DNA of 64,000 bases from Lautropia sp. (lineage in GTDB: Bacteria; Pseudomonadota; Gammaproteobacteria; Burkholderiales; Burkholderiaceae_E): NCBI GenBank assembly GCA_030527825.1, contig JAUNAC010000001.1:372001-436000 (forward strand), read 5' to 3'. Within the stretch, counting starts at the first letter, position 1. Every line of letters begins with the position of its first letter. A model generated the notes under the pieces. It saw only the letters and a program-made list of their open reading frames with translations. It was not told the origin of the DNA and did no database searches. Made by a program: the position numbers and the translations under genes. Shown here one piece after another: positions 26,143 to 55,260 of the stretch.

Positions 26143-26144
26143 GT

Positions 26145-27119: not shown

Positions 27120-27138
27120 GCAACACGGGAACCTGGCC

Positions 27139-29531: not shown

Positions 29532-29540
29532 CGGATACCT

Positions 29541-30713: not shown

Positions 30714-30758
30714 CATGACCGGCTTCAGCCACGGACTCTCCGCACCCTTGCCCACAAG

Positions 30759-35073: not shown

Positions 35074-36289
35074 ACGCCCCCAGCGGGTCTTCATGATCCT
35101 GGACAGCGTCTACCCCTCTACTGGTGGTGGTGGCGCGGAATCCCAGGTTGGCACGCTGACCCGGTGGCTAGCCGGTCAGGGCATTCCCAGCACCATCGTG
35201 GTGCCCATGGTGCCCTGGGGTCCCCAGGCTGCCTACGAACAGCATGGCCTGGTCGACATTATCCGACTGCGCTACCCCCGGCTGCCCATGCTCGGCGGTC
35301 TGGTACTGCTGGCCCGTCTGGCATGGCTGCTTCATCGCCGGCGCAACGAGATCAAGGCCATCCACTGCCATATTGCCAAGAACATGGCCGTCCTCAGTGC
35401 CATACTCAACCGGCTGCTCAAAAAACCGCTGATCGTCAAACTCACAGGCATGACCGAATTGCATGGCGGGATCCTTGATCACCATCCGTCGATATTCATG
35501 CGGATCAAGCGGGCCATTCTTCGCAAGACCATGATCCAGGCCATCAGCCAGGCGCTGGGCAACCGGCTGACCGACGTGGGTTTCTCACCGGCACAGGTCT
35601 ATCGTATTCCCAACGCCGTCGACCTCGATCGCTTCGACCCACAACAGCCCGCGATGCGGGAGCTACGCGAACAAGCCCGCCAAGATGACCATCTGGTCGT
35701 CCTGTACGTTGGGCGTCTGGAGGCGGTCAAAGGGCTGGACATTCTCCTGGATGCATGGATGGATGCCTTCACCAGTGAGCAGAAAGTCCGACTGCTGCTG
35801 GTTGGCACCGGCTCGCTAGAGAGCGAGCTGAAAAAGAAAGTACATGATCTGCGGCGCAGTGCCCAGGTGCTGTTCCTGGGTCAGAGTGATGACGTCTCCG
35901 AGCAGCTAGCTATCGCCGATCTCGGTGTGCTTGCTTCCTATACCGAAGGACTGTCCAACACCCTGCTCGAATCCATGGCTGCGGGCCTGCCGATGATCGG
36001 CTCCCGTGTCAGCGGCAACGAGGATTTCATACAGCCCGGTGTCACCGGTTGGCTCTTTCCGCCCGGCAGTAAGCAGGCCCTTGCCGAATGCCTGCGCGCC
36101 GCCTACCGTCTGGGTCGGCCTGGCCTGAACGACATGGGTCGTGCCGCTCGCCGGTTTGTCGGGGCCAACGCCTCCATCCCGGTCGTTGGCCATCAGCTCA
36201 GAACTGTCTACGACGGCGATGCCTGGACGCTCACTGCGCTGGGCGATCTGACATCGCCCGACACCCAACCCACAGACACGATGCATTGA
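35057..36289 (+). CDS. Family 4 glycosyltransferase
   Basis: 410 residues from ATG 35057 (MTRSIKRPQRVFMILDSVYP), which overlaps the preceding gene by 17 bp; the frame is open further upstream but only inside that gene. GT-B fold with N-terminal STGGGGAESQVGTLTRWLAG and C-terminal YVGRLEAVKGLDILLDAW, LGVLASYTEGLSNTLLESMA followed by AGLPMIGSRVSGNEDFIQPG. This donor-site motif is typical of GT4. It adds one residue to the EPS repeat unit. The specificity cannot be read. Confidence 0.9.
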   Translation: MTRSIKRPQRVFMILDSVYPSTGGGGAESQVGTLTRWLAGQGIPSTIVVPMVPWGPQAAYEQHGLVDIIRLRYPRLPMLGGLVLLARLAWLLHRRRNEIKAIHCHIAKNMAVLSAILNRLLKKPLIVKLTGMTELHGGILDHHPSIFMRIKRAILRKTMIQAISQALGNRLTDVGFSPAQVYRIPNAVDLDRFDPQQPAMRELREQARQDDHLVVLYVGRLEAVKGLDILLDAWMDAFTSEQKVRLLLVGTGSLESELKKKVHDLRRSAQVLFLGQSDDVSEQLAIADLGVLASYTEGLSNTLLESMAAGLPMIGSRVSGNEDFIQPGVTGWLFPPGSKQALAECLRAAYRLGRPGLNDMGRAARRFVGANASIPVVGHQLRTVYDGDAWTLTALGDLTSPDTQPTDTMH

Positions 36290-36292
36290 ACC

Positions 36293-38191
36293 ATGTGTGG
36301 CATAGCCGGACTGATCTCCCTTGACGGGCGTACCCTGCCAGACCCGGAAACCCTGACCACGATGTGTGACACCATCATCCATCGTGGCCCTGACGATCAG
36401 GGCATGTTCCGAACCGACTGGGCCGCTATCGGCATGCGTCGGCTGGCCATCATTGATGTAGCGGGTGGCCAGCAACCTGTCACGAGCGCCGGCGGACGCA
36501 TCCAGCTCGTCTTTAATGGCGAAATCTACAATTTTCGCGAGCTGCGGCAAACGCTGCAGGCCCGCGGCTACGTCTTCCAGAGCCAGTCCGATTCGGAGTG
36601 CATTGTTCACGCCTACGCGGAATATGGCACTGACTGCTTTGCCATGCTGCGTGGCATGTTTGCCATTGCCATCATCGACCAGATCCGGCGCCGCGTCGTG
36701 CTGGCCCGCGACCGGATCGGCAAAAAACCGCTGTATCTGGGTGAACTCTCCCCAGGCATCATGGGATTCGGCTCAGAACTCAAGACCCTGATGGCCGTGC
36801 CCGGCTGGCAGCCTCGCCTGGCCATGCCAGCCATACAGACCTTCTTCAGTCTGGGCTACATTCCCGCCCCCGACACAATTTTCGAGGGGATTGCCAAGCT
36901 GCCACCCGGCCACTGGGTCACGATTGAACCTGGCCAGGACGGTGCGACCCCTACCATCACCCAGACCCGTTTCAGCAAGGTCGACTTTCTGCCCAAGTGG
37001 ACAGATGACGAAACGACGCTGAAGTCGCGTCTCCTGGCCGAACTGGATGAGGCAGTACGCGTGCGCCTGGTCTCTGATGTGCCTTTCGGCGCGTTTCTCA
37101 GTGGCGGGCTGGATTCCAGCGTGGTCTGTGCCCTGATGACCCGCCACCTCTCTCAGCCCCTGAAAACCTTTTCGATCGGTTTCGAAGAAGCTGCGTTTGA
37201 TGAGCTGCCAGACGCCCGCCGTGTCGCACAGCACCTGGGAACCGAACACCATGAAATGGTGGTACGTCCCGATGCAGCCCATCTCCTTGAAACGCTGGCG
37301 CACCATTTTGATGAACCTTTTGGCGACTCATCAGCCATTCCGACCTATCTGGTGTCACAACTGGCGGCACGACATGTCAAGATGGTGCTGTCCGGTGATG
37401 GGGGAGATGAGCTGTTTGCCGGATACTCCCGCTACCAGCGCTACGCCACCCTGCAGCACATCCGCCGCGCCTCACTGGGCCTGGCACCGGCACTGGCCAG
37501 ACTCAGTGGCCGCCTCCTGCCTGGCGCCTGGGGTCGCCGTCTGTCAGGCATAGGCGAACGACTGGGCCTGCCCTGGCCTGACGACTATCTTGCCCAGGTG
37601 GGACTCGCCAATGTAGCGGATCTTCATCTGCTCTTCGGTGACAGGGCATTGTCCGATCCATTCGGCAGCATCCGGCAACGGTTCATCAGATCCGATATCG
37701 ATTCTCACGCCGAACAGATATTGTCTGGCGATATGGACACCTATCTCGTTGACGACATTCTCACCAAGGTGGATCGCACCACCATGGCGAACTCGCTGGA
37801 GGCTCGTGCCCCGTTACTCGACCAGAACCTGATTGACTTTGCGGCCCGTCTGCCCTTCAACATGAAGCTGCGTGACGGTCAGGGCAAGTACCTGTTCCGG
37901 AAGGTGGCGGCCGACCTGTTGCCGGCTGCCGTCCTGGCCAAACGCAAACAGGGCTTTGCCATCCCGCTGGCAGCCTGGTTCCGTACAGATCTCAAACCCA
38001 TGCTGCTTGACACCATCCACAGTCGTACGTTCAAGGAACGCGGCATCTTCGATCAGACCGGTATCCAGCGCCTGGTGGACGAACACCAACAGGGCCTCCA
38101 GGACCGGGGCGAGCTGCTCTGGATGGTGATGGTGCTGGAGACCTGGATGCGAACCCTGCCTGACCGGCCGATTCGGAAACCGGTGAACTGA
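36293..38191 (+). CDS. AsnB-like glutamine amidotransferase of the EPS locus (TIGR03108/WbpS-like)
   Basis: 632 residues, complete class II amidotransferase. It starts MCGIAGLISLDGRTLPD with catalytic Cys2, followed by IIHRGPDDQGMF, LVFNGEIYNFRELR and DSECIVHAYAEYG. The synthetase domain has GAFLSGGLDSSVVCALM (PP-loop about residue 270), LSGDGGDELFAGYSRYQRYA and VDDILTKVDRTTMANSLEAR. It matches the exosortase-A amidotransferase 1 family. WbpS-type homologues turn sugar uronic acids into uronamides in O-antigens, which suits the UDP-GalNAcA pathway predicted at 51099-56280. It begins 3 bp after the GT4 stop. Confidence 0.9.
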   Translation: MCGIAGLISLDGRTLPDPETLTTMCDTIIHRGPDDQGMFRTDWAAIGMRRLAIIDVAGGQQPVTSAGGRIQLVFNGEIYNFRELRQTLQARGYVFQSQSDSECIVHAYAEYGTDCFAMLRGMFAIAIIDQIRRRVVLARDRIGKKPLYLGELSPGIMGFGSELKTLMAVPGWQPRLAMPAIQTFFSLGYIPAPDTIFEGIAKLPPGHWVTIEPGQDGATPTITQTRFSKVDFLPKWTDDETTLKSRLLAELDEAVRVRLVSDVPFGAFLSGGLDSSVVCALMTRHLSQPLKTFSIGFEEAAFDELPDARRVAQHLGTEHHEMVVRPDAAHLLETLAHHFDEPFGDSSAIPTYLVSQLAARHVKMVLSGDGGDELFAGYSRYQRYATLQHIRRASLGLAPALARLSGRLLPGAWGRRLSGIGERLGLPWPDDYLAQVGLANVADLHLLFGDRALSDPFGSIRQRFIRSDIDSHAEQILSGDMDTYLVDDILTKVDRTTMANSLEARAPLLDQNLIDFAARLPFNMKLRDGQGKYLFRKVAADLLPAAVLAKRKQGFAIPLAAWFRTDLKPMLLDTIHSRTFKERGIFDQTGIQRLVDEHQQGLQDRGELLWMVMVLETWMRTLPDRPIRKPVN

Positions 38192-39225
38192 TGCTGGATA
38201 TCGGGAAACAAATCATCAAACAGATCGTCTCACCTCTGGCAGACCGCGCCGGCGTGTATGACGAAAAACTGGAACGGTTGCTGGGCGCAAACAACCGCCT
38301 GCTGGTTCTGATGTATCACCGTGTCATTGATGACCTGGATTCCGATCCGTTTGCGCTGGGGATGTGTGTCCGCCAGAAATATTTTGAGGAGCAACTGGCC
38401 TGGCTGGCCGCTCACACACATGTCCTGCCACTCGGCCTTGCGGTGCAGCGGTTGCTGAACCATGAGCCACTACCCCCGTACGCCGTTGCCATCACCTTCG
38501 ATGACGGGTTGCTGGACAATCTGACCTACGCAGCGCCCCTGCTGGAAAAGTATCAGCTTCCAGCTACCTTTTATATCATCACGGGAGGTCTGGATGAAGG
38601 CCAGCCCATGTGGTGGGATCAGGCCATCGCCATGATTGCATGTACCAGCGCTCAAAGCCTTGATCCGCGCGAGGTGGGGATGCCCGAACTGGCTCACGAA
38701 CTCTCGCTGCATCGCCATGCACGGCGTAGTAGCTGCACCACCATTCTGAACGCACTGTGGGAACGCAACCCGGCCGCCATTGCCCAGTGTCTGGAGCAAA
38801 TGCGGAAAGTGCTCAACCCCTCCCCCATTCCGCCAGCCCTTCAGGCGCCGCGCATGCAGACGAAACAAGTCCAGGAAATGGTGCGCCGTGGTTTCCATAT
38901 TGGCGCTCATACGACCCGACATATTGATCCCAAGCTCTTCAATCGTGAGCAGCTGCATGACGATCTGACCGCTTCACGCCGCCGTCTGCAGGATATCTGC
39001 CAGCAACCGATTGACAGCTTTGCCTATCCCGGTGGCCGGTCTTCGGTCTGGATGCCCGACCTTCTCGATACACTTGGGTTTCACCACGCCGTTGACACCC
39101 GACGGGGCATCAACCAGGCGCCGGCATCGCGCTACGCCATTGCGCGCGTCGGCATGCCTGATACCCCGGTCGGCGATTTCAAACGCGCCATCCGCAACCT
39201 AACTATTATCGACGCAACACATTGA
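38191..39225 (+). CDS. Polysaccharide deacetylase family protein (second)
   Basis: 344 residues. NodB-like motifs are RLLVLMYHRVIDDLD, YAVAITFDDGLLDNLTYAAP, GFHIGAHTTRHIDPKLFNRE (His-x3-His) and IDSFAYPGGRSSVW. No signal peptide is visible. It differs from the first deacetylase in the operon by a helical insert of about 80 residues between motif 1 and motif 2 (DQAIAMIACTSAQSLDPREV onward), as in O-antigen/EPS-type members. It likely acts on EPS amino sugars. The start overlaps the preceding stop by one base, and its own stop overlaps the TTG start of the next gene. Confidence 0.87.
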   Translation: MLDIGKQIIKQIVSPLADRAGVYDEKLERLLGANNRLLVLMYHRVIDDLDSDPFALGMCVRQKYFEEQLAWLAAHTHVLPLGLAVQRLLNHEPLPPYAVAITFDDGLLDNLTYAAPLLEKYQLPATFYIITGGLDEGQPMWWDQAIAMIACTSAQSLDPREVGMPELAHELSLHRHARRSSCTTILNALWERNPAAIAQCLEQMRKVLNPSPIPPALQAPRMQTKQVQEMVRRGFHIGAHTTRHIDPKLFNREQLHDDLTASRRRLQDICQQPIDSFAYPGGRSSVWMPDLLDTLGFHHAVDTRRGINQAPASRYAIARVGMPDTPVGDFKRAIRNLTIIDATH

Positions 39226-40598
39226 ACCAGACCAAGTTTCTCAATGGCCTGCTGGCGGCCATGATCGTCTGGGTGCCAAACCAGCTGCACCTGCCAGCCG
39301 ATCTCGGCATTAAAGGACTCAACAGCATCAACCTGCTGTTTCTGGCCCTCATCTACTACAGCCACACCCGAAACAAAACGCTGCCACGCTCACATGCCAC
39401 CCCGCTCAAGGGGATTTTCATCGCCTATTTCTGCATGTTGGGCTGGGCCTTCATCGCGGGTCAGCTCACAGACCGTTCATTGATGATGGATGATCTGACC
39501 GCCCTGAAGAATTCCGTTTTCTTCATGTGCCTGTTCTTTGTGTTCTACAACGGCGTCCGGGACGAAACCAGTGTCCGCCACCTGTTCTACATGGTACTCG
39601 TGGTGGCGGCCGTTGCCGGCATCGAAGCCATCCGGGAAGGGATCGACTACGGTTTTGGCGTCTATGGCGAAACCAAGCGGGCCGCCGGCCCGTTCGGCAG
39701 CAACTATAAGGCATCCAATCTGGCGGCGGTATTTTTCTCCATGTTCATGCCGGTTTTTGCGGCTGTTGCTTTCTACCAGAAAGGGCGCCCTCTTGTCCGG
39801 CTGGGCGGTATCTCGGGCGTCGTCATCCTGCTCCTGGGCATTTTCTGCACCTATTCCAGACAGGCGTACCTGATCGTGGCCGCCATGTTGCTGCTCATGG
39901 CCATCAAGCGCAATCTGGTCCTGGGACTGCTGATCCTCATTGCCGTGCTCAACTATGAAGCCTGGGTGCCCGAAGGTGTCGTGACCCGGCTGGCCATGAC
40001 GGAGCAGACATCTGCCGAAACAGGTGAAGCACAACTCGATGAAAGCACCGAAAGCCGCTTTATCCTGTGGGAAGGGGCAGGCCGGCTTCTGGCGTCCCGC
40101 CCCTGGGGCATCGGCCTGAACCATTTCAAGCGTGAGATTGGCTCGGAAGAGCCCTCGCTGGCAGGACTGGATGCCCACAATTTCCTGGTGCTGATCACGA
40201 CCGAAGCGGGCCCCCTCGGCGGTGTGATGACCCTGATCCTGTACATCGGTCTCGGCAGCCTCGCCTGGCGCTTCTCGCGCCTGGCCAAAACACCCGACCA
40301 ACAGACCATGGCCGCCGGCTTTGCCGGTGCCACCATGGCCGTCATGCTCGGTAATCTCTATGGCAGCCGCTTGCTTGATGGTGCCGTCACGGGCAACTAC
40401 TGGATTCTGGCCGGTCTGTCCGCCCGCTATTGGGTACTGCTCAAATACGGCACTCCGGACGAAGCAGCCGGATCCACTACGACGCCGGAAGAAAGCGCCA
40501 TGTCTCCCCAAGCAGGCCAGCGCCCGTATCGGGGTACTCCCCCCAGCCACCCTTCACCCAGAGACGCCCAGGGTCGACTGATCCGTCCTGCCAGCTGA
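39222..40598 (+). CDS. Wzy-type polymerase / O-antigen ligase family protein
   Basis: 458 residues with about 10-12 membrane helices. The Wzy_C signature region is CTYSRQAYLIVAAMLLLMAI, then a periplasmic loop ending in ESRFILWEGAGRLLASRPWG and DAHNFLVLITTEAGPLGGVM. This is the arrangement of O-antigen ligases and polymerases. With Wzx, Wzz-like and Wza-like proteins present it is the probable EPS polymerase. The start is taken as TTG 39222 overlapping the previous stop (TTGA); ATG 39261 is possible. The last 60 residues are a polar Ser/Pro tail. Last gene before the terminator at 40630. Confidence 0.85.
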   Translation: MNQTKFLNGLLAAMIVWVPNQLHLPADLGIKGLNSINLLFLALIYYSHTRNKTLPRSHATPLKGIFIAYFCMLGWAFIAGQLTDRSLMMDDLTALKNSVFFMCLFFVFYNGVRDETSVRHLFYMVLVVAAVAGIEAIREGIDYGFGVYGETKRAAGPFGSNYKASNLAAVFFSMFMPVFAAVAFYQKGRPLVRLGGISGVVILLLGIFCTYSRQAYLIVAAMLLLMAIKRNLVLGLLILIAVLNYEAWVPEGVVTRLAMTEQTSAETGEAQLDESTESRFILWEGAGRLLASRPWGIGLNHFKREIGSEEPSLAGLDAHNFLVLITTEAGPLGGVMTLILYIGLGSLAWRFSRLAKTPDQQTMAAGFAGATMAVMLGNLYGSRLLDGAVTGNYWILAGLSARYWVLLKYGTPDEAAGSTTTPEESAMSPQAGQRPYRGTPPSHPSPRDAQGRLIRPAS

Positions 40599-41001
40599 GA
40601 GACTGAAACCTTCTCACTGATACCGTCTGTGCCGGGCCTTCTGCGCCCGGCATTTTTTTGCCATTCACGCCGTCTGCGCCAGCGGCACACAGCTGCCTCC
40701 TCCACCAGCCATCCGCTCAGCGGCCACTCCTTTCAATCCCGTCCGGCGACCGCATGGCGGGCCAGGCCACCCCCGATCCCCAGGCAATGGCCACCCATCC
40801 ATCAGGCTTTTCCATCTGCAACATCAGCGCCTAGAGTGCGTGTGACTTTTTTCTGACACCGGACCTGCTGAAGCTGGCTGCCCTTCGCCCTCGCGGCAGC
40901 ACCGGTGGCTGCGTTACCAAGTCCCAACACTGCACATCACACGCTGGATCATGACCCCTCTCCGCCCGGCTTTTCTGACGATCTCCCCCCAACCCCTTCA
41001 A
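40599..41001. other. Intergenic region after the EPS operon
   Basis: 403 bp with the terminator at 40630-40659. I see no coding frame with a convincing start and no obvious promoter for the next gene. A C/A-rich stretch runs from about 40680 to 40810. Confidence 0.5.
40630..40659 (+). terminator. Intrinsic terminator of the EPS operon
   Basis: TGCCGGGC (40630-40637) and GCCCGGCA (40645-40652) form a perfect 8 bp G+C-rich stem with a 7-nt loop, followed by TTTTTTT (40653-40659). It lies 31 bp after the stop of the Wzy-type gene. It marks the 3' end of the operon that starts at 22711. Confidence 0.92.
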
Positions 41002-43572
41002 ATGTCCACCCGCAGGCGGATGCGTCATGCCAGCGCCACTCTGACCGCCCTGTGTCTGAGTGCCAGCCTGCTCGCGGCCTGTGGCGGTGGCGGTGGCAGC
41101 GAACCGCATGCCACCACCCCGGCCGGCAATACCGGCGCCCTGGCCCTGGCCGACCACAACACGCCCGGCAATGCCAGCGACACCCCGGAAGACGATATCT
41201 GGTTCCAGGACGAGTCGCCATTCAGTAGCGAAAACACTCTCAAGGAAGGAGACGGGGTCACAGCCAAAGCCAGCATCACCCAGCCAGTCATCATACGGGC
41301 GCCATCCTTTGGCCCGCTGGGACAAACTGTACGCGTGGGCGTCCCCATCACCCGGATCCCCGGGGTCTATCGAAATGGCAGCGCCGTCGCAGGGTTTCGC
41401 AGCCGAAACGGCAAAGACATACCCGAAGGACGGCAAGCTACTTACACCCCTACCCAGGCTGACGTCGGCAAACAACTGGTCTACCGCGAGCGTGTTCTCA
41501 ACCCTCGCACCAATGAATACATTCTGGCCTATAGTGCACCGGTTACCGTTGTGTCCAACGCGCCGGAACCGGCCAGCCCCGCCACCACCACCCTGCGCCC
41601 CCCGGTCATCGACACTGGCAACACCCGGATCAGGGCAGGCCACACGATCCGCATCCTGGCCGGCGCCTATCAGAATGGCGAAATCAGCCGCCGCCAGTGG
41701 TTCCGCAATGGACAGGCCATTCCAGGCGCCACGAAGGACACCTACATCCCCACATCCGATGACATCGGCAAAACGCTCAGTTACGCCGAAACCGTGCGCA
41801 ATCCTGCCAGCGGCGCAGTCACGGTCGTGCGCTCTGAATCCATCCGGGTTGTGGCGAGCAACTATCCCTCCATACTCAGCCTGCCACTCACTTCTGTCCA
41901 CGGCGAAACCATTGCCGTGGGCCAGCACCTGAGCGGACAGTCCGGCCGCTATCAATGGGGGCATGTCCGTCAGTCCTACTGGTTCATCGACAATGTCATT
42001 GCAGGTCGCGGCAACAGCTTTACGCCCCTTCCGGCCCACCTGGGCAAGATGCTCACCTACACGGAAGAGATCGAAGGGGATAGCGGCGACATTGTGTGGC
42101 TGTCCGCCCCGGCGCTCAAAGTGACCATCAGTCCCCCCGTCAGCCATACGACGAATGCGGACAACGCCACCGCCCCAACACCCCCGCACCAACCCGCCGC
42201 TCCGACCGCATCGGCACCGCAGCCACAAAATCCTGCCAGGCAGCAGACGCCGGCCACATCAACCGCAGGTATCACCCGGGATGATCTCTGCTGGAATATC
42301 CTGGAAAAGCATCCCGTCAAGCTGATGTCCGGCCAGGAAAATGCACATGTACCCGATCGGCAGGCACCTGCCACCGGGGTCGCCGTGCAGGAGCCTACCT
42401 ACCATACCTGCGAAGTCCGGCTCACGCACAACCGCCAGCTGTCGGGCAACGAAAAGAGCCATCGCAACGACTACTCCCGCCGCCAGGCATTCAACGCCGA
42501 CAACACCCGTCTCCTGATGAGCGCCTCCGATGGCTACTGGCATCTGTACGACGCGCACACCGGCAAATACCTGCATGTTCTGAACGGTCTGGCGGGTGAT
42601 GCGGAGCCACAATGGGATCACGCCAATCCCCATGTGCTGTATTACGTGCCCACGAACGGCGTCGGCATGACCATCAACGAACTCAACGTCGACACCAATC
42701 AGCATCACGTCGTCGCCGATCTGAGCCGGGATCTGCAAAGACTCTGGCCCGATGCCAACAGTGCCTGGACAAAATCCGAAGGCTCCCCCTCTGCCGACAA
42801 TCGCTACTGGTGCCTGATGGTCGACAACGCCCAGTGGCAGGGACTGGGCGTGTTCACCTGGGACATAAAGGAAAAACGGATCCTGGGCCACATGAACCTG
42901 CCAGAGCGCCCGGATCATGTCAGCATGAGCCCCACGGGCAAATACTGTGTCATCTCCTGGGCAAACAGTCCGACCCTGGGCACGCGCGCCTACACACCGG
43001 ACTTCAGCTCGGCACACCCGGCCTCTCCCGAGCACCGGCCCTATCTGCAGCTGCATGCCCAGTCCGAACACTCCGATCTGGCACTGAACAAAAAGGGCGA
43101 AGATGTGTACGTCTCCATCGACTACCAGTCGGACTCGGGCGATCTGTTCATGGTGAACCTGAACACAGGCCGTCGTACCACCCTGTTCCCGACCTACCTG
43201 TCGGGAACCGCCACGGCCCTGCACGTCAGCGGCAAAGCCTACGGACAACCCGGCTGGGCAGTCATCTCCACCTATGGCGAATACCATTCCGGCAACCAGT
43301 CCGCCAGCCTGCGCAATACGTCACTGCAGCAATGGCTGCACCGCAAGATCTTTGCTGTCAGCCTGGAAGACAAACCCAAAATCCGTCCGCTCGCTCACGC
43401 CGACAGTGACTCAAGATCCGAGTGGCAGCAGGACGCCTATTGGGCTGAACCCCAGGCCACGGTCAGCCGCGACTTTACCCGCGTCCTGTTCAACTCCACC
43501 CTGAACAGCGACCGTGTTGAAGACATCGAGACGTACATGCTGGTCATGCCCAAAGGAGCGCTGGATCACTGA
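41002..43572 (+). CDS. Secreted Ig-repeat/propeller-like lipoprotein, paralogue 1 of 3
   Basis: 856 residues from ATG 41002 (an ATG at 40951 adds 17). The signal peptide ends in the lipobox LLAAC-GGGGG. Residues about 94-375 hold three Ig-like repeats of about 90 residues, each ending in a D(V/I)GK-L-Y type strand: TPTQADVGKQLVYRE, IPTSDDIGKTLSYAE, TPLPAHLGKMLTYTE. After a Pro/Ala/Thr linker, residues about 426-856 form the domain shared with the two following genes: DLCWNIL, YHTCEVRL, YSRRQAFNADNTRLL, GDAEPQWD, NRYWCLM, GKYCVIS, DFTRVLFNS. The repeated DG/NTGK turns and final LFNS strand suggest a beta-propeller. Family and function unknown. Confidence 0.8.
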   Translation: MSTRRRMRHASATLTALCLSASLLAACGGGGGSEPHATTPAGNTGALALADHNTPGNASDTPEDDIWFQDESPFSSENTLKEGDGVTAKASITQPVIIRAPSFGPLGQTVRVGVPITRIPGVYRNGSAVAGFRSRNGKDIPEGRQATYTPTQADVGKQLVYRERVLNPRTNEYILAYSAPVTVVSNAPEPASPATTTLRPPVIDTGNTRIRAGHTIRILAGAYQNGEISRRQWFRNGQAIPGATKDTYIPTSDDIGKTLSYAETVRNPASGAVTVVRSESIRVVASNYPSILSLPLTSVHGETIAVGQHLSGQSGRYQWGHVRQSYWFIDNVIAGRGNSFTPLPAHLGKMLTYTEEIEGDSGDIVWLSAPALKVTISPPVSHTTNADNATAPTPPHQPAAPTASAPQPQNPARQQTPATSTAGITRDDLCWNILEKHPVKLMSGQENAHVPDRQAPATGVAVQEPTYHTCEVRLTHNRQLSGNEKSHRNDYSRRQAFNADNTRLLMSASDGYWHLYDAHTGKYLHVLNGLAGDAEPQWDHANPHVLYYVPTNGVGMTINELNVDTNQHHVVADLSRDLQRLWPDANSAWTKSEGSPSADNRYWCLMVDNAQWQGLGVFTWDIKEKRILGHMNLPERPDHVSMSPTGKYCVISWANSPTLGTRAYTPDFSSAHPASPEHRPYLQLHAQSEHSDLALNKKGEDVYVSIDYQSDSGDLFMVNLNTGRRTTLFPTYLSGTATALHVSGKAYGQPGWAVISTYGEYHSGNQSASLRNTSLQQWLHRKIFAVSLEDKPKIRPLAHADSDSRSEWQQDAYWAEPQATVSRDFTRVLFNSTLNSDRVEDIETYMLVMPKGALDH

Positions 43573-43605
43573 CACTTGCCACAACCACATGACATGAAGC
43601 CACCC

Positions 43606-43642
43606 GTCCGGGCAGATGCCAACGCAGCTGCCCGGACTTTTT
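43606..43642 (+). terminator. Intrinsic terminator after paralogue 1
   Basis: GTCCGGGCAG (43606-43615) and CTGCCCGGAC (43628-43637) form a perfect 10 bp stem with a 12-nt loop followed by TTTTT (43638-43642). It lies 33 bp after the stop of paralogue 1, so paralogue 2 most likely has its own promoter. Confidence 0.92.
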
Positions 43643-43820
43643 CCTATCGGCCAGCATCTTCCGCCTGAAAAGCCGCGTCATTGCCAACTCCCGCACAGAC
43701 GCCCGTGTCCAGCCCGACGACCATCGACAGGACTCACCCTGCAGACCCCCTCCGATGAAGCCAACGATCCGGCCCAATCCGTACGCCCCCAGTCACGCTT
43801 CCTGCCAGCACCACACCGAC

Positions 43821-45389
43821 ATGCAATGGAGGCAAATCCAGCGCGCCGGTCTCGTCATCCTGCTGGGCCTGTGCATGACCGCCTGCGGGCAAAGCGCGAC
43901 CGACACCCCGCGCCCGGCCGCCCCCATGAACGACGGCCCGCCAGACAGCAGACGGCCACTCCACACCGCCCCTGCCAGTGACACGGCCAGTCCATCTATC
44001 AATCTGCAGCCGCCGGCCATGAGCGCCGGCCCAAATCCCCCGCTCACCAGCAACAGCCCCCGTCCATCCTCCCCCGCCCTTGACCAGACAGGACTCTGCG
44101 CCGACATCCTGTCCACCATGCCGTCACTGACCATCGGCACCGAACGTCACCCGCTGCCAGACAACCCCCGCCCACCGCTGCTGACCAGCACCCAGGATCC
44201 GGTCTACCACAGCTGCATCGTGCGCATTACCGACAATACCGCCCACCTCGACAGCCCCACACTGCGCAACGACTACTCGCGCCGCCAGGCTTTCAACGCC
44301 GACAACAGCCGCTTTCTGCTTGAGGCAAGCGATGGCTTCTGGCACCTGTACGACGCCCGCACCGGGCATTTCCTGCGCATCCTCAAAGATCTGGCTGGCG
44401 CCACCGATCGACTGGCCGGCGACGCCGAACCCCAGTGGCACCCCACCGATCCAAACCTGCTGTACTTCCTGCCACGTGACGGCATCGGCATGCTGATCTA
44501 CCAGCTCGACCTGAAGAACAACCGCGTCTCGGTCATCGCCGACATGGGACCCCAGGTACGGCAATACTGGCCAGACGCCAACGTTGCCTCCACCAAATCG
44601 GAAGGCTCCCCCTCTGCGGACGGTCGCTACTGGTGCTTCATGGCGCGCAGCATGGTCGATAACAGCCACTGGCCCATGCGCGGCGTATTCACCTGGGATC
44701 TCCAGAAAAAACAGATCATCGGCACCCTCGACCAGATGGGTACCCCAGACCATGTCAGCATGAGTCCGAGCGGCAAATACTGCGTCATCTCCCACACCGC
44801 CGCCACCGGCCCCGGCACCCGTGCCTACCGGCGTGATTTCCGGGCGCCCTACGGCACCGCCAGCAACCGTGCCTGGCTGCAGCTGCACACCACATCCGAG
44901 CACTCTGACCTGGCCTTCAACGACCAGCGGCAGGATCTGTACGTCTCCGTCGACTACCAGAGCAACCACGGAGATGTTTTCATGACCAATCTCGACACCG
45001 GGCAGCGCACCCCACTCTTTGCCACCTACCCCGGACGCACCGAAACTGCGCTGCATATCTCCGGCAAGGCTTATGACCATCCAGGCTGGGCCCTGGTATC
45101 CACCTACGCCGAACACCCGGCAGAAGACAGCACCGTCCAGGGGCTGCACGACGAGCGCCGCCAGTGGCTGCACCGCAAACTGTTCGCTGTCAAACTGACG
45201 GAAAAACCCGAAATCCGTTCCATCGCCTACGTCAACAGCGACGCCTTCCGGTACGAGACCGAACCCCAGGCCACGGTCGACCGGACATTCACCCGCATGC
45301 TCTTCAACTCAACCTGGAACGGCAGCAGCGCCGCTGACCAGGAGGTCTACCTCACGGCCATTTCTGGCAACAGCCTCAATCCCCGGTAA
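43821..45389 (+). CDS. Secreted propeller-like lipoprotein, paralogue 2 of 3
   Basis: 522 residues from ATG 43821 (MQWRQIQRAGLVILLGLCMT, lipobox MTAC); an ATG at 43755 would add 22 residues before the signal peptide. A Pro/Ser-rich linker of about 65 residues replaces the Ig-like repeats of paralogue 1. The shared domain covers about 90-522: GLCADILSTMPSL, YHSCIVRITDN, NDYSRRQAFNADNSRFLLEA, GDAEPQWHPTDPNLLYFLP, GRYWCFMA, GKYCVISH, TRMLFNSTWNG. The four cysteines of the domain line up with those of the other two copies. This is the minimal copy. Function unknown; secreted, probably membrane-anchored. Confidence 0.8.
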   Translation: MQWRQIQRAGLVILLGLCMTACGQSATDTPRPAAPMNDGPPDSRRPLHTAPASDTASPSINLQPPAMSAGPNPPLTSNSPRPSSPALDQTGLCADILSTMPSLTIGTERHPLPDNPRPPLLTSTQDPVYHSCIVRITDNTAHLDSPTLRNDYSRRQAFNADNSRFLLEASDGFWHLYDARTGHFLRILKDLAGATDRLAGDAEPQWHPTDPNLLYFLPRDGIGMLIYQLDLKNNRVSVIADMGPQVRQYWPDANVASTKSEGSPSADGRYWCFMARSMVDNSHWPMRGVFTWDLQKKQIIGTLDQMGTPDHVSMSPSGKYCVISHTAATGPGTRAYRRDFRAPYGTASNRAWLQLHTTSEHSDLAFNDQRQDLYVSVDYQSNHGDVFMTNLDTGQRTPLFATYPGRTETALHISGKAYDHPGWALVSTYAEHPAEDSTVQGLHDERRQWLHRKLFAVKLTEKPEIRSIAYVNSDAFRYETEPQATVDRTFTRMLFNSTWNGSSAADQEVYLTAISGNSLNPR

Positions 45390-45502
45390 AACGGAACCAG
45401 CGGATCAGTCCGAACGATCCGCGGTCGTTGCAATGATGCAACACGCTGCTAAGATTTCTGCGATATAACGCAGCCTTCAAAAAAAAGGCCCTGTTCATCG
45501 CC
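45390..45502 (+). promoter_or_regulatory. Spacer with two small hairpins between paralogues 2 and 3
   Basis: GCGGATC (45400-45406) pairs with GATCCGC (45416-45422), and GTTGCA (45427-45432) with TGCAAC (45437-45442). Neither has a T tract. A TATAAC (45465-45470) could be a -10 element for paralogue 3, without a clear -35 box. Confidence 0.3.
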
Positions 45503-47629
45503 ATGAGACCTGAATCACATCCCCTGACTCCGCACACAGGCGGGCAGACTGCACCCGATGCCAGCCTTGTCAGCACAACCGCTCCTGCCTGCGCTGGCCC
45601 ATTCCGGCTAAACCGGCAACACCAGCCCGACAACGTCAGTCCGCTCACCGCGCGCATCCTCTCTGCCAGCGTGCTGCTGATGAGCCTGTGCCTTGGTGCA
45701 TGCGGCTCCGGCAGCTCCGGCAACGATACAGACAGCGGTTCGCTGCTGTCCATCCGGAAACCGCTGCAAGACCAGCAGACCGCACCACATCGTGACCCGT
45801 TGTCATCCACCACTGCCGGCGACGGTCATGAAAGCACCAGCAGCAGCACCGGCAGCAACGGCAGCAGCAGCGGTGACGCCAGCACCACAGGCCACCTCAA
45901 TCCGCTCCCGCCATCCAGCGCCGCGGACAAAGCAGACACAAAAGACAACCCACCCTCTGACAGCCAGAACAACAACGGCACTGTATCCACCACCGACAGT
46001 GGCAGTGGCACCGTAACCGGGCCATCCAGCGGTGAAACAACAAATGGCCAGTCCGGCAGCCCCCATGCCGGACAGAGCTCGTCTGGCCCGGACACGCCAG
46101 ACAACAGCAACACCCCTCAGCCACCCGTGAACAGCCAATCCCCTGACAACGCGACTGGCGCACCGGCGGGCAAACTCCCCGGTTCGGGTTCGGATGCTGG
46201 TGCTGGTGCTGGTGCTGACACCGATGATACGCCTTCGAAACAAAATCCCGGTGCTGATGTCACACCCAAACCAGACCTCTCGTCACAGCAGGGACGCAGT
46301 CACATCAGCCCGGTATGTGCCCCGGTCCTGTCGCATGCCAAACCACTGGCCAGCGGCACGCTTCTCGGCGACATGGCTGATGCACCCCGCCCCGCCACCG
46401 GCGTGGCCCACGAAGACCCAGACTGGCATAGCTGCGTCGTGCGTCTGACGCATCAGGCCGAAAGTCATTCAGACCATCCGCTCTACACGCCACATGCCGC
46501 CCAGCAGGCTTTCAATGCGGACGACAGCGCCCTGCTCCTGCGCACCGATCACGGTGAATGGCATATCTTCGATCCCCAGACCGCCCGTCCCATCAGGAAA
46601 CTTCAGTACATCGCTGGCGATGCCGAGCCACAATGGGATCCGAAAGATCCGAAGGTGCTCTACTACCTGAATGTGGATGGCAAGGACATGAAAATCTTCC
46701 GCCTGACCATCGACATCAGCCCCAACGGCACCGACCGTGTTGAGTTGATGGCCGACATGGCTCCGGAAATCCGCCAGTACTGGCCTGACGCTACCCATGC
46801 CCGCACCCGCGGCGGCACCCCGTCAGACGACGGTCACACCTGGTGCTTCATGGCGGACATGAACGATGGCGACAGCTGGAGAACTCGTGGCCTGTTCACC
46901 TGGGACATGCAGGCCAAACATATCGTCGGTGTCCTGAAAAACCCGCCCGCATCCCCGGAATACATCACCACCAGTCCGAGTGGCAGTCACTGCGTGGTGC
47001 AGTACCCCTATTCCGTCGGAGTACGTGCCTACAAAAAAGATTTCTCAGCACCGTACAATCAGGATACAGCGGATAACAATCTGCAACTGCTCAGGCAACC
47101 CTATCAGAAATACGGAGACGTCGCCCGCACTGCCTGGGGTGATGATGTGTACCTGGGATTCAACGTTTTCAGCGCACCGCACCAGCTGTACATGGTTAAC
47201 CTCCGTACCGGTGAGCAGACCAAGCTGCTCGAAACCAGCTTTGGCAGCAACAGCGACACGGGCATTCAGGTCTCGGGACGTGCCTTCAACCGGCCAGGCT
47301 GGGTACTGATTTCCGGCTTTGGCGAACGTGATCAGGGCGTCAACAACCTGCACGGCAACCATCCCAAACGGACATGGTTCCACCGCAAAATGTTTGCGCT
47401 CAGCCTGGAAAACCCACCGAAAACACTGTCGATCGCCAGCCTGCACCATGACTGGGACAGCTCAAAAAACAGCGAATGGCCACGGCCGCACGGTACAGTC
47501 AACCGCAACTTCACGCGCATGCTGTTCAATTCAAACTGGAACAGCCTGAACGGCCGTGACCTTGACGCTTACCTGGTGGAAATCCAGCCTGACGCCATAC
47601 CCGGACTGCCTGCTCGCGCATCAGACTGA
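45503..47629 (+). CDS. Secreted propeller-like lipoprotein with long linker, paralogue 3 of 3
   Basis: 708 residues. The lipobox LCLGAC (Cys67) follows an unusually long N-region of about 50 residues; I see no later start codon in frame before the hydrophobic stretch. Residues about 68-265 are a low-complexity Ser/Gly/Thr/Asn/Pro linker (for example SSSTGSNGSSSGD), suited to spanning the cell-wall or EPS layer. The shared domain occupies about 268-708: PVCAPVL, WHSCVVRLTH, QQAFNADDSALLLRT, GDAEPQWDPKDPKVLYYLN, HTWCFMAD, GSHCVVQ, FTRMLFNSNWNS. It is more divergent than copies 1 and 2 and lacks the YSRR motif before the first blade. Function unknown. Confidence 0.8.
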   Translation: MRPESHPLTPHTGGQTAPDASLVSTTAPACAGPFRLNRQHQPDNVSPLTARILSASVLLMSLCLGACGSGSSGNDTDSGSLLSIRKPLQDQQTAPHRDPLSSTTAGDGHESTSSSTGSNGSSSGDASTTGHLNPLPPSSAADKADTKDNPPSDSQNNNGTVSTTDSGSGTVTGPSSGETTNGQSGSPHAGQSSSGPDTPDNSNTPQPPVNSQSPDNATGAPAGKLPGSGSDAGAGAGADTDDTPSKQNPGADVTPKPDLSSQQGRSHISPVCAPVLSHAKPLASGTLLGDMADAPRPATGVAHEDPDWHSCVVRLTHQAESHSDHPLYTPHAAQQAFNADDSALLLRTDHGEWHIFDPQTARPIRKLQYIAGDAEPQWDPKDPKVLYYLNVDGKDMKIFRLTIDISPNGTDRVELMADMAPEIRQYWPDATHARTRGGTPSDDGHTWCFMADMNDGDSWRTRGLFTWDMQAKHIVGVLKNPPASPEYITTSPSGSHCVVQYPYSVGVRAYKKDFSAPYNQDTADNNLQLLRQPYQKYGDVARTAWGDDVYLGFNVFSAPHQLYMVNLRTGEQTKLLETSFGSNSDTGIQVSGRAFNRPGWVLISGFGERDQGVNNLHGNHPKRTWFHRKMFALSLENPPKTLSIASLHHDWDSSKNSEWPRPHGTVNRNFTRMLFNSNWNSLNGRDLDAYLVEIQPDAIPGLPARASD

Positions 47630-49101: not shown

Positions 49102-50019
49102 TCAGGCAGGTGTTCCTCGCCGGGTCTCCCCGTCCGCCGCGGCCCGCAGACCACCCGGCTCCGCCGGCAGGGTCGCCAGCCATTGGCGAACATGTCCGAT
49201 GTAGACACGCTGACCATGCAGGGTCGTCATCGTATGGTCAATCTCAGGCAGAAAGTCACAACGGACATCCCGGGCGATCAGGGCACGGTCAGCATCGGAA
49301 AGCGCGGCGGCCTTCATGACATCATCAAACTGGCTGGCGTGGTTATAGCGGTGCAGCACGCTGCCGGTGAACACCAGATAGCAGGGACACGACTGCCGTG
49401 CCCGCTCCGCCAGGCCATGCCCAAAGTCCGTCACGGTCACCACGGGCAGTCCGTAATCCGCGGGTGCGGCCGGTGTCGGGCCAGCACCGGCACGCAGGCG
49501 CGCGAGACGTCCCTGCACGGCCTTCTTCAGCACCGGCCAGGTGAGCGTGCGCAGGCGCAGGCCATAGCGCAGCAGGCGGGTACGGTGATTGGCAAAGCTG
49601 TAGCCATCCACCATCACCAGTCCGGCCACCCGTGAGTCTTCGGGCGCGTATTGATAGCCGTATTCCGCTCCGGAACAGATACCGATGATCACGAAACGCG
49701 TCAGACCGGTTCGCTGCGCCATCAGATCAACGGCCGAACGGATGTCCCGGCGCACCTGTGCGAGCATGCCATCGGTGCCACTGGCGCGGCGGCTGTCGCC
49801 CAGACCGCTCAGATCCAGCCGCAGTGACGGCATGCCGTCTGCAGCCAGCGCCCGCGCCAGCTTCACATGGATACGATGCGGGCCGATACGATGGATGACC
49901 CCTGCATTCAGAAACACCACGCCAACAGATGCCTTGGTGCCCACCGGCTCGACCAGGGTACCGATCAGGTGCTGATTCTCGCCCAGCTGCACCAGCTGTT
50001 CCCGATACACATCAGACAT
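49102..50019 (-). CDS. Exosortase-A-associated alpha/beta hydrolase 1 (TIGR03100-like)
   Basis: 305 residues of the alpha/beta hydrolase fold: GVVFLNAGVIHRIGPHRIHV, LRLDLSGLGDSRRASG, FVIIGICSGAEYGYQYAPED, VFTGSVLHRYNHASQF and a C-terminal FLPEIDHTMTTLHGQ with the presumed catalytic His. The nucleophile elbow reads GICSG, placing Cys where most hydrolases have Ser. This matches the small hydrolase family known almost only from exosortase-A EPS loci. Substrate unknown; an ester or acyl group on EPS or its precursor is a guess. Its start overlaps the stop of the partner hydrolase by 8 bp. Confidence 0.85.
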   Translation of the reverse strand: MSDVYREQLVQLGENQHLIGTLVEPVGTKASVGVVFLNAGVIHRIGPHRIHVKLARALAADGMPSLRLDLSGLGDSRRASGTDGMLAQVRRDIRSAVDLMAQRTGLTRFVIIGICSGAEYGYQYAPEDSRVAGLVMVDGYSFANHRTRLLRYGLRLRTLTWPVLKKAVQGRLARLRAGAGPTPAAPADYGLPVVTVTDFGHGLAERARQSCPCYLVFTGSVLHRYNHASQFDDVMKAAALSDADRALIARDVRCDFLPEIDHTMTTLHGQRVYIGHVRQWLATLPAEPGGLRAAADGETRRGTPA

Positions 50020-50866
50020 GGAACGGATCCTCCGTCAGCCAGGGCAGTAGCCGCCTGAGTGCAGCATCCGGCACCAGGGGGGTATTCAGGGCCTCTTCGG
50101 ATGTCCAGTCGAAATCGACATCGACCGACTCACAATGCAGCGCCGGCGAACGCCTCTCCGCTGGCCAGGGCAGCGCGCCATTGGCCTGCAATACCGCCAC
50201 ATGCGGCGCTGGCAATGTCTGCCAGTCCTGCCGGTCCAGTGCGCGGATATGCCTGACCAGCCGGGGCGAGAGGGCGAAACCCATCGCCTCGGACAGCGAC
50301 GCCTCGGCCTTTTGACGCCGCAATTGCCTGTCCGGCACCGTCGGCAGGCTGAAGGCCGCACGCAGCGCAGCCTGATGATCCTGCCAGAGCGTCTCCAGAT
50401 AGCGCTGACCGAGCACCACTGGATCCCAGCCAATCAGCCGGTCAGGTGGCATCCCTTCAGTCAGCAGCGCCAGCCGGGGATCATGCGCACCACCGAAACG
50501 GGCGGCCGCCTGCCAGCCAACCGCAAAGCCCAGACGGATGCCAAGCCAGCCAACTGCCTCAATACCCGCCCGCTGGCGCAGACCCTGGTGCGCAGCCAGC
50601 ACATCCAGCTGCCAGCCCTTCATGTCGCCATCCAGGTCATCGCCTGATGAGTCACCGCACCCATGGAAATCGAAGCGAAGTACATGCACGCCCAGACGTG
50701 CCAGCCGGTCAGCCAGTACTCTCAACAGCCGGTGTGCCCGCACGGCCTCCTGACCCAGCGGGTTGATCAGCAACACGCCGCGGTGACGGTCTGCCGCCGC
50801 AGGCGGGTGATACAGCGCAGCCAGCCGGCGGCCACTGCCTGCGGGAATATCCATGGGCTCCATCAT
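50012..50866 (-). CDS. Exosortase-A-associated alpha/beta hydrolase 2 (TIGR03101-like)
   Basis: 284 residues from the tandem ATGs at 50866/50863 (MMEPMDIPAGSGRRLAALYH); the frame is open to 51154, but that would overlap the dehydrogenase gene. Hydrolase cues are GVLLINPLGQEAVRAHRLLR and RFDFHGCGDSSGDDLDGDM. The elbow reads GIRLG with Arg in the nucleophile position, so it may not be a hydrolase in the chemical sense. It pairs with the TIGR03100-like gene (8 bp overlap), as in exosortase-A loci. A 232 bp gap separates it from the dehydrogenase upstream; that gap includes a hairpin at 51068-51083 without a T tract. Confidence 0.8.
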   Translation of the reverse strand: MMEPMDIPAGSGRRLAALYHPPAAADRHRGVLLINPLGQEAVRAHRLLRVLADRLARLGVHVLRFDFHGCGDSSGDDLDGDMKGWQLDVLAAHQGLRQRAGIEAVGWLGIRLGFAVGWQAAARFGGAHDPRLALLTEGMPPDRLIGWDPVVLGQRYLETLWQDHQAALRAAFSLPTVPDRQLRRQKAEASLSEAMGFALSPRLVRHIRALDRQDWQTLPAPHVAVLQANGALPWPAERRSPALHCESVDVDFDWTSEEALNTPLVPDAALRRLLPWLTEDPFHV

Positions 50867-51098
50867 CAGATCACCACTGCAGAGAGATACACCAGAAAAA
50901 AGCGCCGAACCAGCTGCCCTGCGAACCCCGTACGGCATAAGCCGGGAATTCCAGACAGTTCGATTCAGCGCTCCCTGGTTCCGAAGAACCGCCCGCATCA
51001 CCACGGGTACATCATAGGCTCCGGATGAGACTATCCGACTGGTCAGGCTCCAAACCAGCATACCAGCGGGTGGCGAGCCACCCGGCCCGGAGTCTGGC

Positions 51099-52379
51099 TT
51101 ACAGCCGCCAGACGGCCTTGCCAGCCTTCTCGATCTCGGCTGGATCCCAGGCACTCTTCACATCAATGAAGACTCCCTTGTCGACCAGCTTGCCGAGCAG
51201 CGCCGGCAGGCCCTGCTTCTGGTAAGCCTGATGCGACACCGCCGCAACGATCGCGTTGGCTTTGGGCAGCTTGTCCCAGTCCACCAGATTCACGCCGTAT
51301 TCCTCGTGAGCCTCTGCCTTGTCGGCAATCGGATCATGGATCAGCACATTGATGCCATAAGCCTCCAGCTCGCGAACCACATCAATCACCTTGGAGTTGC
51401 GCAGATCAGGCACATCTTCCTTGAAGGTCAGTCCCAGCACAATCACGGTCTGGCCAGCGGTATGCAGTCCCTGACGGGCCAGCATCTTGACGGTCTGTTC
51501 GGCAATGAACCGGCCCATGTTGTCATTGATGCGGCGCCCCGCCAGGATAACTTCCGGGTGATAGCCCAGCATCTGGGCCTTGTGAGTCAGATAGTAAGGA
51601 TCCACGCCGATGCAGTGCCCGCCGACCAGTCCCGGACGGAAGGGCAGGAAATTCCATTTCGAACCGGCGGCCTTGAGCACTTCCAGCGTGTCGATGCCGA
51701 TCTTGTCAAAGACAATGGCCAGCTCGTTCATCAGTGCGATATTCAGGTCACGCTGGGTATTTTCAATCACTTTGGCCGCTTCGGCGACCTTGATGCTGCT
51801 GGCACGATGCACGCCGGCCGTGATGACTTTCTCATATAGCGCCGCCACTTTCTCCAGTGTCTCATCCGTATCACCGGACACAACCTTGACGATGGTAGGC
51901 AAACGATGCTGCTTGTCACCCGGATTGATCCGTTCCGGTGAATAGCCAACGTTGAAATCCTTTTTCCATTTCATGCCGGAATGCTTTTCCAGCACGGGAA
52001 TGCAGACATCTTCCGTAGCCCCCGGATAGACCGTCGATTCATAAATGACGGTCGCCCCCCGCTTCATGTTGGCCCCCACAATCTCGCTCGCGGAAACCAG
52101 GGGAGTGAAATCCGGCAGACGTGCCGAATCAATGGGCGTGGGAACCGCTACCACCACCATATCGGCCTGGCCGATCGCCTTTGGATCATCGGTGATCTTC
52201 AGCTTGCTGGCCAAATCAAAATCACCCCGCTCGACCTCACCGGTCACATCATTGTGCTGCTGCAGACGGGCAACCTTCGCTTTCGACACATCGAAACCGA
52301 TCGTATCGAAATATTTCCCAAACTCAATGGCCAAAGGCAGGCCAACGTATCCCAAACCGACTACTGCAACCGTTGTCAT
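51099..52379 (-). CDS. UDP-N-acetyl-hexosamine 6-dehydrogenase (WbpO/TviB type)
   Basis: 426 residues from ATG 52379 (MTTVAVVGLGYVGLPLAIEF). NAD loop GLGYVG; VVVAVPTPID; the active-site region FRPGLVGGHCIGVDPYYLTH with catalytic Cys; and VIVLGLTFKEDVPDLRNSKV. The overall pattern (ESTVYPGATEDVCIPVLEKH, NVGYSPERINPGD) is that of WbpO/TviB, which oxidise UDP-GalNAc or UDP-GlcNAc to the uronic acid, rather than UDP-glucose dehydrogenase. With the WbpP/TviC-like epimerase at 55261 it predicts UDP-GalNAcA. It follows the sugar transferase gene by 20 bp on the minus strand. Confidence 0.93.
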   Translation of the reverse strand: MTTVAVVGLGYVGLPLAIEFGKYFDTIGFDVSKAKVARLQQHNDVTGEVERGDFDLASKLKITDDPKAIGQADMVVVAVPTPIDSARLPDFTPLVSASEIVGANMKRGATVIYESTVYPGATEDVCIPVLEKHSGMKWKKDFNVGYSPERINPGDKQHRLPTIVKVVSGDTDETLEKVAALYEKVITAGVHRASSIKVAEAAKVIENTQRDLNIALMNELAIVFDKIGIDTLEVLKAAGSKWNFLPFRPGLVGGHCIGVDPYYLTHKAQMLGYHPEVILAGRRINDNMGRFIAEQTVKMLARQGLHTAGQTVIVLGLTFKEDVPDLRNSKVIDVVRELEAYGINVLIHDPIADKAEAHEEYGVNLVDWDKLPKANAIVAAVSHQAYQKQGLPALLGKLVDKGVFIDVKSAWDPAEIEKAGKAVWRL

Positions 52380-52399
52380 ATTGTTTCCACACTTTGAGG

Positions 52400-53743
52400 T
52401 CAACGCGCACCCTTCTTACGTAAAACCACCTGAATGGTTTCGATCAAAACCATGCAATCAAGAAACAGAGAATGGTTTTTCACGTAAAAAAGATCGTATT
52501 CCAGCTTTTCCATGGCCTCTTCCACCGAAGCGCCATAATCCATTCGCACCTGTGCCCAGCCGGTAATGCCAGGCTTCACATAATGCCGGATATCGTAATA
52601 TGGTACCTGCTGATTCAGTTTTTCGACAAAATATGGCCTTTCAGGCCGAGGGCCTACAAAGCTCATTTCACCACGCAAAACATTGATCAATTGAGGTAAT
52701 TCATCAATGCGGGTTGCGCGGATGAATCGTCCCACCCGGGTAATGCGATCGTCACCAATGCTGGCCCAACGCGGTTTCCCATCCTTTTCGGCATCCTGAA
52801 CCATTGAGCGGAATTTCAGGATATTGAATGATTCCCCCGGCGCACAAACGCGTTCCTGACGAAAAAACACGGGCCTGCCGGTCTCCAGCAAAATCACCAC
52901 TGCAGCTATCAGCATCACTGGCGACGCCAGACAAAGCAGTGCCGACGCTACCACGATATCGAATAGCCGTTTGATGATGGCTCTGGTCACCCCTTGAGTG
53001 AAACCATCACCGTAGACCAGCCATCCTGTCCGCAGATAACGCAGACGGATCAGACCCAGCTCCTGTTCATAAAAACTCAGCAGATCCAGCACCTGGATGC
53101 CGGCCAGCCGGCATTCCAGCAGCTGATCCATGGGAATATGTCCACCCCGGCGCTCGTGCACGGCCACCACAATATGAGTCGCCTTGTGACGGCGAGCGAC
53201 CTCTAGCACGCTATCCACCTCTGCCTCGACCGGCACCTGCCCCACCAGATGCGCTGCACGCAGATGATGGTTATCCGCGAGAATCGCCAGCACCAGATCC
53301 GCCTCGTCCCCCTCACCCATGACCAGCACGCGCCGGCCACGACGCTGCATGAAACCGAGCCGATAGGCCAGATAGCGCACCACCAGGATACCCAGCAGCC
53401 CCAGAACCGAAGCAATCGCAAACACGCCCCGCCCGACTTCGGATTCCGGGAAGACATAAAACAGGACCGTCTGCGCCAGCAGCGTCACCAGGTAGGCCGC
53501 AAATACCTTCTGAACCACCAGCCGAAAAGGTTCATCCTGCTGGCGCCCATACAGGCCGAACGCAGTCATGGTCAACATCATCAGCGCCGCAAAAAGCGCG
53601 CCTCTCAATGTCGAAAATACCAGACCATCCTGGTTCAACAACCGGATCTGATAGCCCAGAACCATCGACAGCACCAATACCAGTGCATCAATGACGGGCA
53701 AAACGGCAAAACGTACTCGAAGGTAATGAATGAACGCGCGCAT
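52400..53743 (-). CDS. EPS-initiating sugar transferase (EpsB/TIGR03013 type)
   Basis: 447 residues. There are four or five N-terminal membrane helices, a central nucleotide-binding-like domain (RRVLVMGEGDEADLVLAIL, HERRGGHIPMDQLLECRLAG) and the C-terminal bacterial sugar transferase domain: KRLFDIVVASALLC, RQERVCAPGESFNILKFRSM, TRIDELPQLINVLRGEMSFV and GPRPERPYF. It transfers the first sugar-1-phosphate to undecaprenyl phosphate, starting the EPS repeat unit. The ERRGG-LECRLAG-LLSFYE pattern is that of the exosortase-A locus version. It heads the minus-strand block; the region upstream (53744-53923) separates it from the WecA-like gene. Confidence 0.93.
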   Translation of the reverse strand: MRAFIHYLRVRFAVLPVIDALVLVLSMVLGYQIRLLNQDGLVFSTLRGALFAALMMLTMTAFGLYGRQQDEPFRLVVQKVFAAYLVTLLAQTVLFYVFPESEVGRGVFAIASVLGLLGILVVRYLAYRLGFMQRRGRRVLVMGEGDEADLVLAILADNHHLRAAHLVGQVPVEAEVDSVLEVARRHKATHIVVAVHERRGGHIPMDQLLECRLAGIQVLDLLSFYEQELGLIRLRYLRTGWLVYGDGFTQGVTRAIIKRLFDIVVASALLCLASPVMLIAAVVILLETGRPVFFRQERVCAPGESFNILKFRSMVQDAEKDGKPRWASIGDDRITRVGRFIRATRIDELPQLINVLRGEMSFVGPRPERPYFVEKLNQQVPYYDIRHYVKPGITGWAQVRMDYGASVEEAMEKLEYDLFYVKNHSLFLDCMVLIETIQVVLRKKGAR

Positions 53744-55006: not shown

Positions 55007-55260
55007 GGTAGCGACTCGGACAAACACTGGTCATCAGCTTAGCGCACCAGTGGAAAAAGGCGTGAGAAGTATGACCGCCGCAGCGTCAGTTGCCAGCAAC
55101 AATTTGAAACTTTATGAGCAATTTAGAATATCGGTAGGGACATTGATCACAACATTGCTCCGCCTCGCTTATCTTTGGAACCGTCACGATTCCCGTGCGC
55201 CGCTGTACCGGGCATTTGGCTCTACTCACGCAAAATCAAGAAAACCCTTTCAGAACACCC

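Follow-up and report, generated by a model that had tools for sequence, protein, structure and literature searches.

What do lipoproteins with a common, unnamed domain do beside an exopolysaccharide (EPS) operon? The question is raised by a 64,000-nucleotide stretch of a Lautropia sp. genome (the window; contig JAUNAC010000001.1, positions 372,001 to 436,000), in which three consecutive lipoprotein genes follow an XrtA-type EPS operon. The original prediction had recognised tandem lipoprotein genes with a common domain, and we confirm this. The domain is best explained as polysaccharide-active and is most likely a lyase, a role to which we give an even chance. This reading is based on a lipid-anchored propeller that resembles oligogalacturonate lyases (PL22), a fixed polar site, an EPS-ligase-like neighbour and the position of viral copies in regions of tail and lysis genes.

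A predicted propeller domain in three tandem lipoproteins

Lipoprotein 1 (873 residues) is encoded on the forward strand at 40951..43572. Its start, formerly set at 41002, is placed here at 40951. Lipoproteins 2 (544 residues) and 3 (708 residues) follow on the same strand at 43755..45389 and 45503..47629. Judged by eye, each of the three starts with a signal-peptide-like segment and a lipobox-like cysteine, and each carries a single C-terminal domain of about 430 residues, located at about 42226-43569, at 44067-45386 and at about 46289-47626, respectively. The regions ahead of the domain had been described as Ig-like repeats, a short linker and a Ser/Gly linker. We find three beta repeats, likely Ig-like, and a linker in lipoprotein 1, a short linker in lipoprotein 2 and a long Ser/Gly-rich linker in lipoprotein 3. 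The domain of protein 1 shares 51% identity with that of protein 2 and 37% with that of protein 3. A fourth propeller copy is encoded elsewhere in the same genome. Three to five copies are present in eight of nine Lautropia genomes, this one included, and none in the remaining one, which is 81% complete.

The model of the protein 2 domain reaches a predicted local distance difference test (pLDDT) score of 93, and its best matches among solved structures, by Foldseek and VIA-align, are PL22 enzymes. The expectation of a propeller, and in particular of likeness to oligogalacturonate lyase, is borne out by this model. The prediction is a propeller of the PL22 kind with seven blades, their number being our reading of the strand order of the model. 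In the structure comparison, PL22 lies well above every other row shown, and WD40 rows lie 7 Z units under it. The ulvan-lyase propellers, which we take to be PL24 and PL25, are not among the structure matches shown. WD40 and TolB propellers have the general propeller fold in common with the domain, and their models reach no curated cut-off, with sub-threshold matches in the three proteins and weak matches in family members. The two disulfides expected earlier are compatible with cysteine covariation. In contrast to PL22 enzymes (PDB 3pe7 and 3c5m), which are presumably cytoplasmic, the members of this family are exported lipoproteins with disulfide-like cysteine pairs.

Among 5.8 billion proteins searched, 1259 are relatives at E≤1e-3, and the best 120 of them include proteins from Lautropia, Cardiobacteriaceae, Burkholderiaceae, Lysobacteraceae, Caldimonas and Myxococcales. 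In genome contigs, 76 loci were found (the best 80 of 103 were kept), which belong to Pseudomonadota, Myxococcota and Actinomycetota. The domain alignment holds 112 rows, made up of the query and 111 distinct domains of the loci fetched; a few rows represent overlapping parts of genes of the window itself. No Pfam or NCBIfam model exceeded its cut-off for the domain in the three window proteins, and in scans of 44 family members with both collections the domain matched WD40, TolB or Ig models below threshold only. Searches of PDB sequences gave nothing below an E of 0.2, and in the literature we found no paper on this propeller family, which carries no name to search by. The earlier description of the system as undescribed holds for Pfam, NCBIfam and PDB sequences, and for PHROGs in the case of two phage members.

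Some family members stand out. A Cardiobacteriaceae copy (L030) is placed within the clade of Lautropia gene 1 with a support of 100, which suggests transfer from bacterium to bacterium in one habitat. In the database protein P0116 (714 residues), the propeller is followed by a glycoside-hydrolase-20 domain (PF00728); this fusion may be real or a misassembly, and the fusion with an AMP-binding domain in P0110 seems to be a misassembly. Among 72,556 plasmid records the domain was found in one, at 24% identity.

The polar site and its loss in the third protein

Fifteen polar residues are conserved in the family (R67, Y70, R72, R73, Q74, E121, E179, R187, H229, E278, H279, D281, H330, Y396 and E399, numbered as in the domain of protein 2), and 84 of the 112 rows contain all of them. 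In our mapping onto the model, they are mostly located at, or just ahead of, the innermost strand of a blade, which is the position of the PL22 site. The manganese site of PL22, which we take to consist of H287, Q350, H353 and H355, is aligned to H330, Y396, E399 and position 401 in all four MAFFT modes, with Gln (50 of 112 rows) or His (49 of 112) at position 401. The presumed ligands Q350, H353 and H355 are therefore Tyr, Glu and Gln/His in this family and, if our assumption on the ligands is right, any metal site would be a variant one. For the PL22 residue H242, MAFFT gives an alignment to L282, whereas an ungapped shift would pair it with H279. Our assignments of a metal and of a catalytic base are guesses.

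The site is whole in proteins 1 and 2, but protein 3 retains only 3 of the 15 residues. This narrows the earlier proposal that the lipoproteins bind, cut or organise the EPS. Relatives of protein 3 in the loci L025, L026, L027 and L035 keep 4, 5, 6 and 7 residues, and these five rows are the lowest of the 112 and form one clade with a local support of 99 (FastTree). The cysteines and fold motifs are retained in protein 3. It has the appearance of an ancient duplicate whose gene was kept after the site was lost, and is a probable non-catalytic paralogue. Loss of the site in a retained copy is compatible with a binding role. Degeneracy is stated here for the fetched third copies, which are some of those in Lautropia.

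Relatives beside EPS genes and in phages

A ligase-like gene is a recurrent neighbour of the propeller in other genera and in several bacterial families. A homologue of the ligase or of the second amidotransferase lies within the stretch at 28 of the 76 loci and at 23 of the 52 loci with full flanks; the loci L001-L024, with flanks of 1.5 kb, are not counted, and their negative labels on the tree carry little meaning. The nearer of the two genes is 0 to 7.0 kb from the propeller (measured at 26 of the 28 loci). Paired XrtA hydrolases at two further loci bring the total to 30 of 76, so that the link to EPS holds for roughly two fifths of the loci sampled. Several propeller copies occur together at 20 of the 76 loci. 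The fourth Lautropia paralogue has none of these genes in its six long loci, and the neighbours of seven loci from Cardiobacterium, Actinomyces, Schaalia, Acidovorax, Massilia, Myxococcus and Acidimicrobiales showed no common partner by eye.

The domain also occurs in viruses. In a search of viral structure models one entry, A0A8E5NQ64, lies far above the others (E 3.3e-37, TM 0.80 by query length). Among 50,697 phage records the domain was found in one, LUCX_246 of Xanthomonas phage LucasX, a protein of 1172 residues annotated as hypothetical, and from the equal length we infer that the two entries are the same protein. LUCX_246 has PHROG tail-fibre matches at residues 18-304 (best E 3.3e-13) and the propeller at 323-768. 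In IMG/VR, 18 loci carry the domain. An endolysin gene adjoins the domain or lies near it at both loci whose lysis genes were analysed, L109 and L112. Four propeller copies, in separate proteins, are encoded on a single large viral contig from IMG/VR (349,660 bases; L107, L117). Within the 16 distinct viral domains, 13 retain 11 to 15 of the 15 site residues. The tree, built with FastTree and with long branches, requires six changes between viral and cellular rows, which makes several transfers likely. Three viral proteins of about 970-990 residues (L118, L119, L122) have lost the site, like Lautropia gene 3. In the DepoScope set, propeller domains account for 119 of 984 fold hits among predicted phage depolymerases; LUCX_246, a candidate depolymerase, has a predicted propeller in common with them.

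Proposed function and the surrounding EPS cluster

We propose that the three lipoproteins have as their target at the cell surface the exopolysaccharide of the neighbouring genes, a polymer predicted to contain a uronic acid. At the propeller mouth, proteins 1 and 2 would take up a hexuronic-acid unit, whose carboxylate would be neutralised by arginines, perhaps together with a metal ion on H330, E399 and Q/H401. The chain would be broken by beta-elimination, by which the matrix could be trimmed or released near the cell. Protein 3 would hold the polymer uncut and tether it via its long linker. That proteins 1 and 2 cut the cell's own exopolysaccharide appears likely, because of the PL22-like fold of the model and because relatives are found beside EPS clusters and in phage tail-fibre genes; protein 3, with most of the conserved residues gone, would merely bind it.

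To our knowledge, no trimming enzyme has been assigned to XrtA-type EPS clusters. The 2006 paper that defined the XrtA system contains neither the word lyase nor the word propeller. Such clusters are widespread, with the exporter over its cut-off in 22 of 61 relatives, 15 of which have no propeller. With a confidence that stays short of even, we suggest a new polysaccharide-lyase family that serves as matrix trimmer of uronate-rich XrtA-type clusters, is carried by phage tails to bore through matrix and has left a dead paralogue as matrix tether in Lautropia. If true, a lipid-anchored lyase family beside the ligase-like gene would be the trimming enzyme for XrtA clusters, the dead paralogue would be a natural control, and the viral copies could become matrix-cutting tools. 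The family has more than 1000 members and neither a Pfam nor an NCBIfam model. A related division of labour is described for Vibrio cholerae, where RbmB is the producer's own matrix lyase, Bap1 holds the matrix polysaccharide and that polysaccharide contains a modified guluronic acid. RbmB is predicted as a parallel beta-helix and not as a propeller, and the analogy is one of role only.

Several results weigh against the lyase reading, which assigns a role to a family of which no member has a known activity. The PL22 model PF14583 gives no match for the three proteins (E≤1) and none in their own genome (E≤1e-3), and it matches one of 44 family members, at E 0.0091; across 274 genomes of the class, its five matches are weak and probably belong to other propellers, and it yields no PL22 sequences. 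With a score of 31.9, one TolB sequence comes close to the 38.3 of PL22, which makes the sequence link to PL22 weak and dependent on the predicted fold. One of the four presumed PL22 ligands is identical in the family, three of the 16 viral domains have lost the site (4 of 15 residues kept), and the accessible text of the LucasX paper reports no tail fibres visible in micrographs and names no depolymerase. At 40 of the 76 loci, some on short contigs, none of the 19 query genes is present. The predicted co-occurrence of homologues with EPS loci is thus real but partial. The TviB-like dehydrogenase gene was found in 23 of 23 genomes chosen from the EPS-side loci, compared with 5 of 12 others, which had suggested that a uronate dehydrogenase marks propeller loci. 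This candidate was weakened by a control, as 13 of the 15 exporter-positive relatives without propeller carry a TviB-like gene, 12 of them at an identity of at least 58%; uronate is probably common to such clusters in general and does not single out the propeller. In three Lautropia relatives (G005, G006, G008) the TviB-like match contains one in-frame stop, which may be merely the gene end.

The main alternative is that all three proteins are non-catalytic, EPS-binding lectins that attach the matrix to the outer membrane, with the conserved site binding sugar. We consider this unlikely, though the least so of the alternatives. Propellers often bind, Bap1 of V. cholerae is reported to crosslink cells and matrix polysaccharide, and the retention of protein 3 and its four relatives after loss of the site makes a non-catalytic role viable. 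However, 15 polar residues that are fixed across domains sharing as little as about 36% identity and that group at the position of the PL22 active site fit an enzyme better, as do the viral copies in regions of tail and lysis genes. Alternatively, the domain could act on this matrix by another chemistry, as a hydrolase, an esterase or a sugar-modifying enzyme. The PL22 metal ligands, as we presume them, are not conserved as a set, and E121, E179, E278, D281 and E399 could serve hydrolysis; but the nearest fold is that of a lyase, and the cluster contains uronate-making genes, which leaves this chemistry improbable. Slightly less probable still is a WD40/TolB-like scaffold for protein contacts with no tie to polysaccharide. 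The sub-threshold WD40 matches, the commonest Pfam matches in 26 of 44 members, the TolB score and the loci without EPS genes speak for it, whereas the distance of WD40 from PL22 in the structure comparison, the recurrent ligase neighbour and the copy behind a tail-fibre N-terminus do not.

The proposed substrate is suggested by the genes around the lipoproteins. By TIGR models and Pfam, the XrtA-type operon (22591..40598, forward strand) encodes an exporter, a chain-length protein, a kinase, an ATPase, a flippase, glycosyltransferases, amidotransferases, deacetylases and a ligase-like protein. The exporter (TIGR03027, 200.7 bits, cut-off 180) and the chain-length protein (TIGR03007, 438.4 bits, cut-off 278.85) exceed their cut-offs. 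Downstream on the reverse strand, a nucleotide-sugar dehydrogenase (51099..52403) exceeds the cut-off of TIGR03026 and has TviB as best model (NF011729, 506.9 bits, cut-off 592); a TviC-like epimerase (NF011728, 363 bits, cut-off 760) is encoded at 55195..56280 on the forward strand. Both scores lie below cut-off, a further point against the proposed substrate. The TviB-like product is the predicted source of an N-acetylhexosamine (HexNAc)-uronic acid, and the epimerase is predicted to make the uridine diphosphate derivative of N-acetylgalactosaminuronic acid (UDP-GalNAcA). The presence of these genes nearby suggests that the polymer contains a HexNAc-uronic acid, perhaps GalNAcA.

The operon ends with the ligase-like gene, an O-antigen-ligase/polymerase-like membrane protein (Wzy_C, PF04932, 42.9 bits, cut-off 31.7) at 39222..40598 on the forward strand. 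The whole genome contains a single ligase site and three amidotransferase sites, of which two belong to this cluster. Between operon and lipoproteins, a terminator-like hairpin at 40629..40653 (forward strand; 9 pairs followed by T6) is a consensus match that is not above the shuffled count. The other XrtA models in the operon score below cut-off, as do TIGR03100 and TIGR03101 for two hydrolases (49102..51154, reverse strand) that resemble the exosortase A-associated hydrolases 1 and 2. Despite the XrtA-type operon, the genome (99.4% complete) has no exosortase match to PF09721 at E≤1e-3. A sugar-phosphate transferase of the XrtA type, which initiates the EPS repeat, is encoded at 52400..53743 on the reverse strand and exceeds the cut-off of TIGR03013 with 483.9 bits. 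Between it and the epimerase lies the gene of a hydrophobic protein (53924-55027, reverse strand) that matches no Pfam model at E≤0.001.
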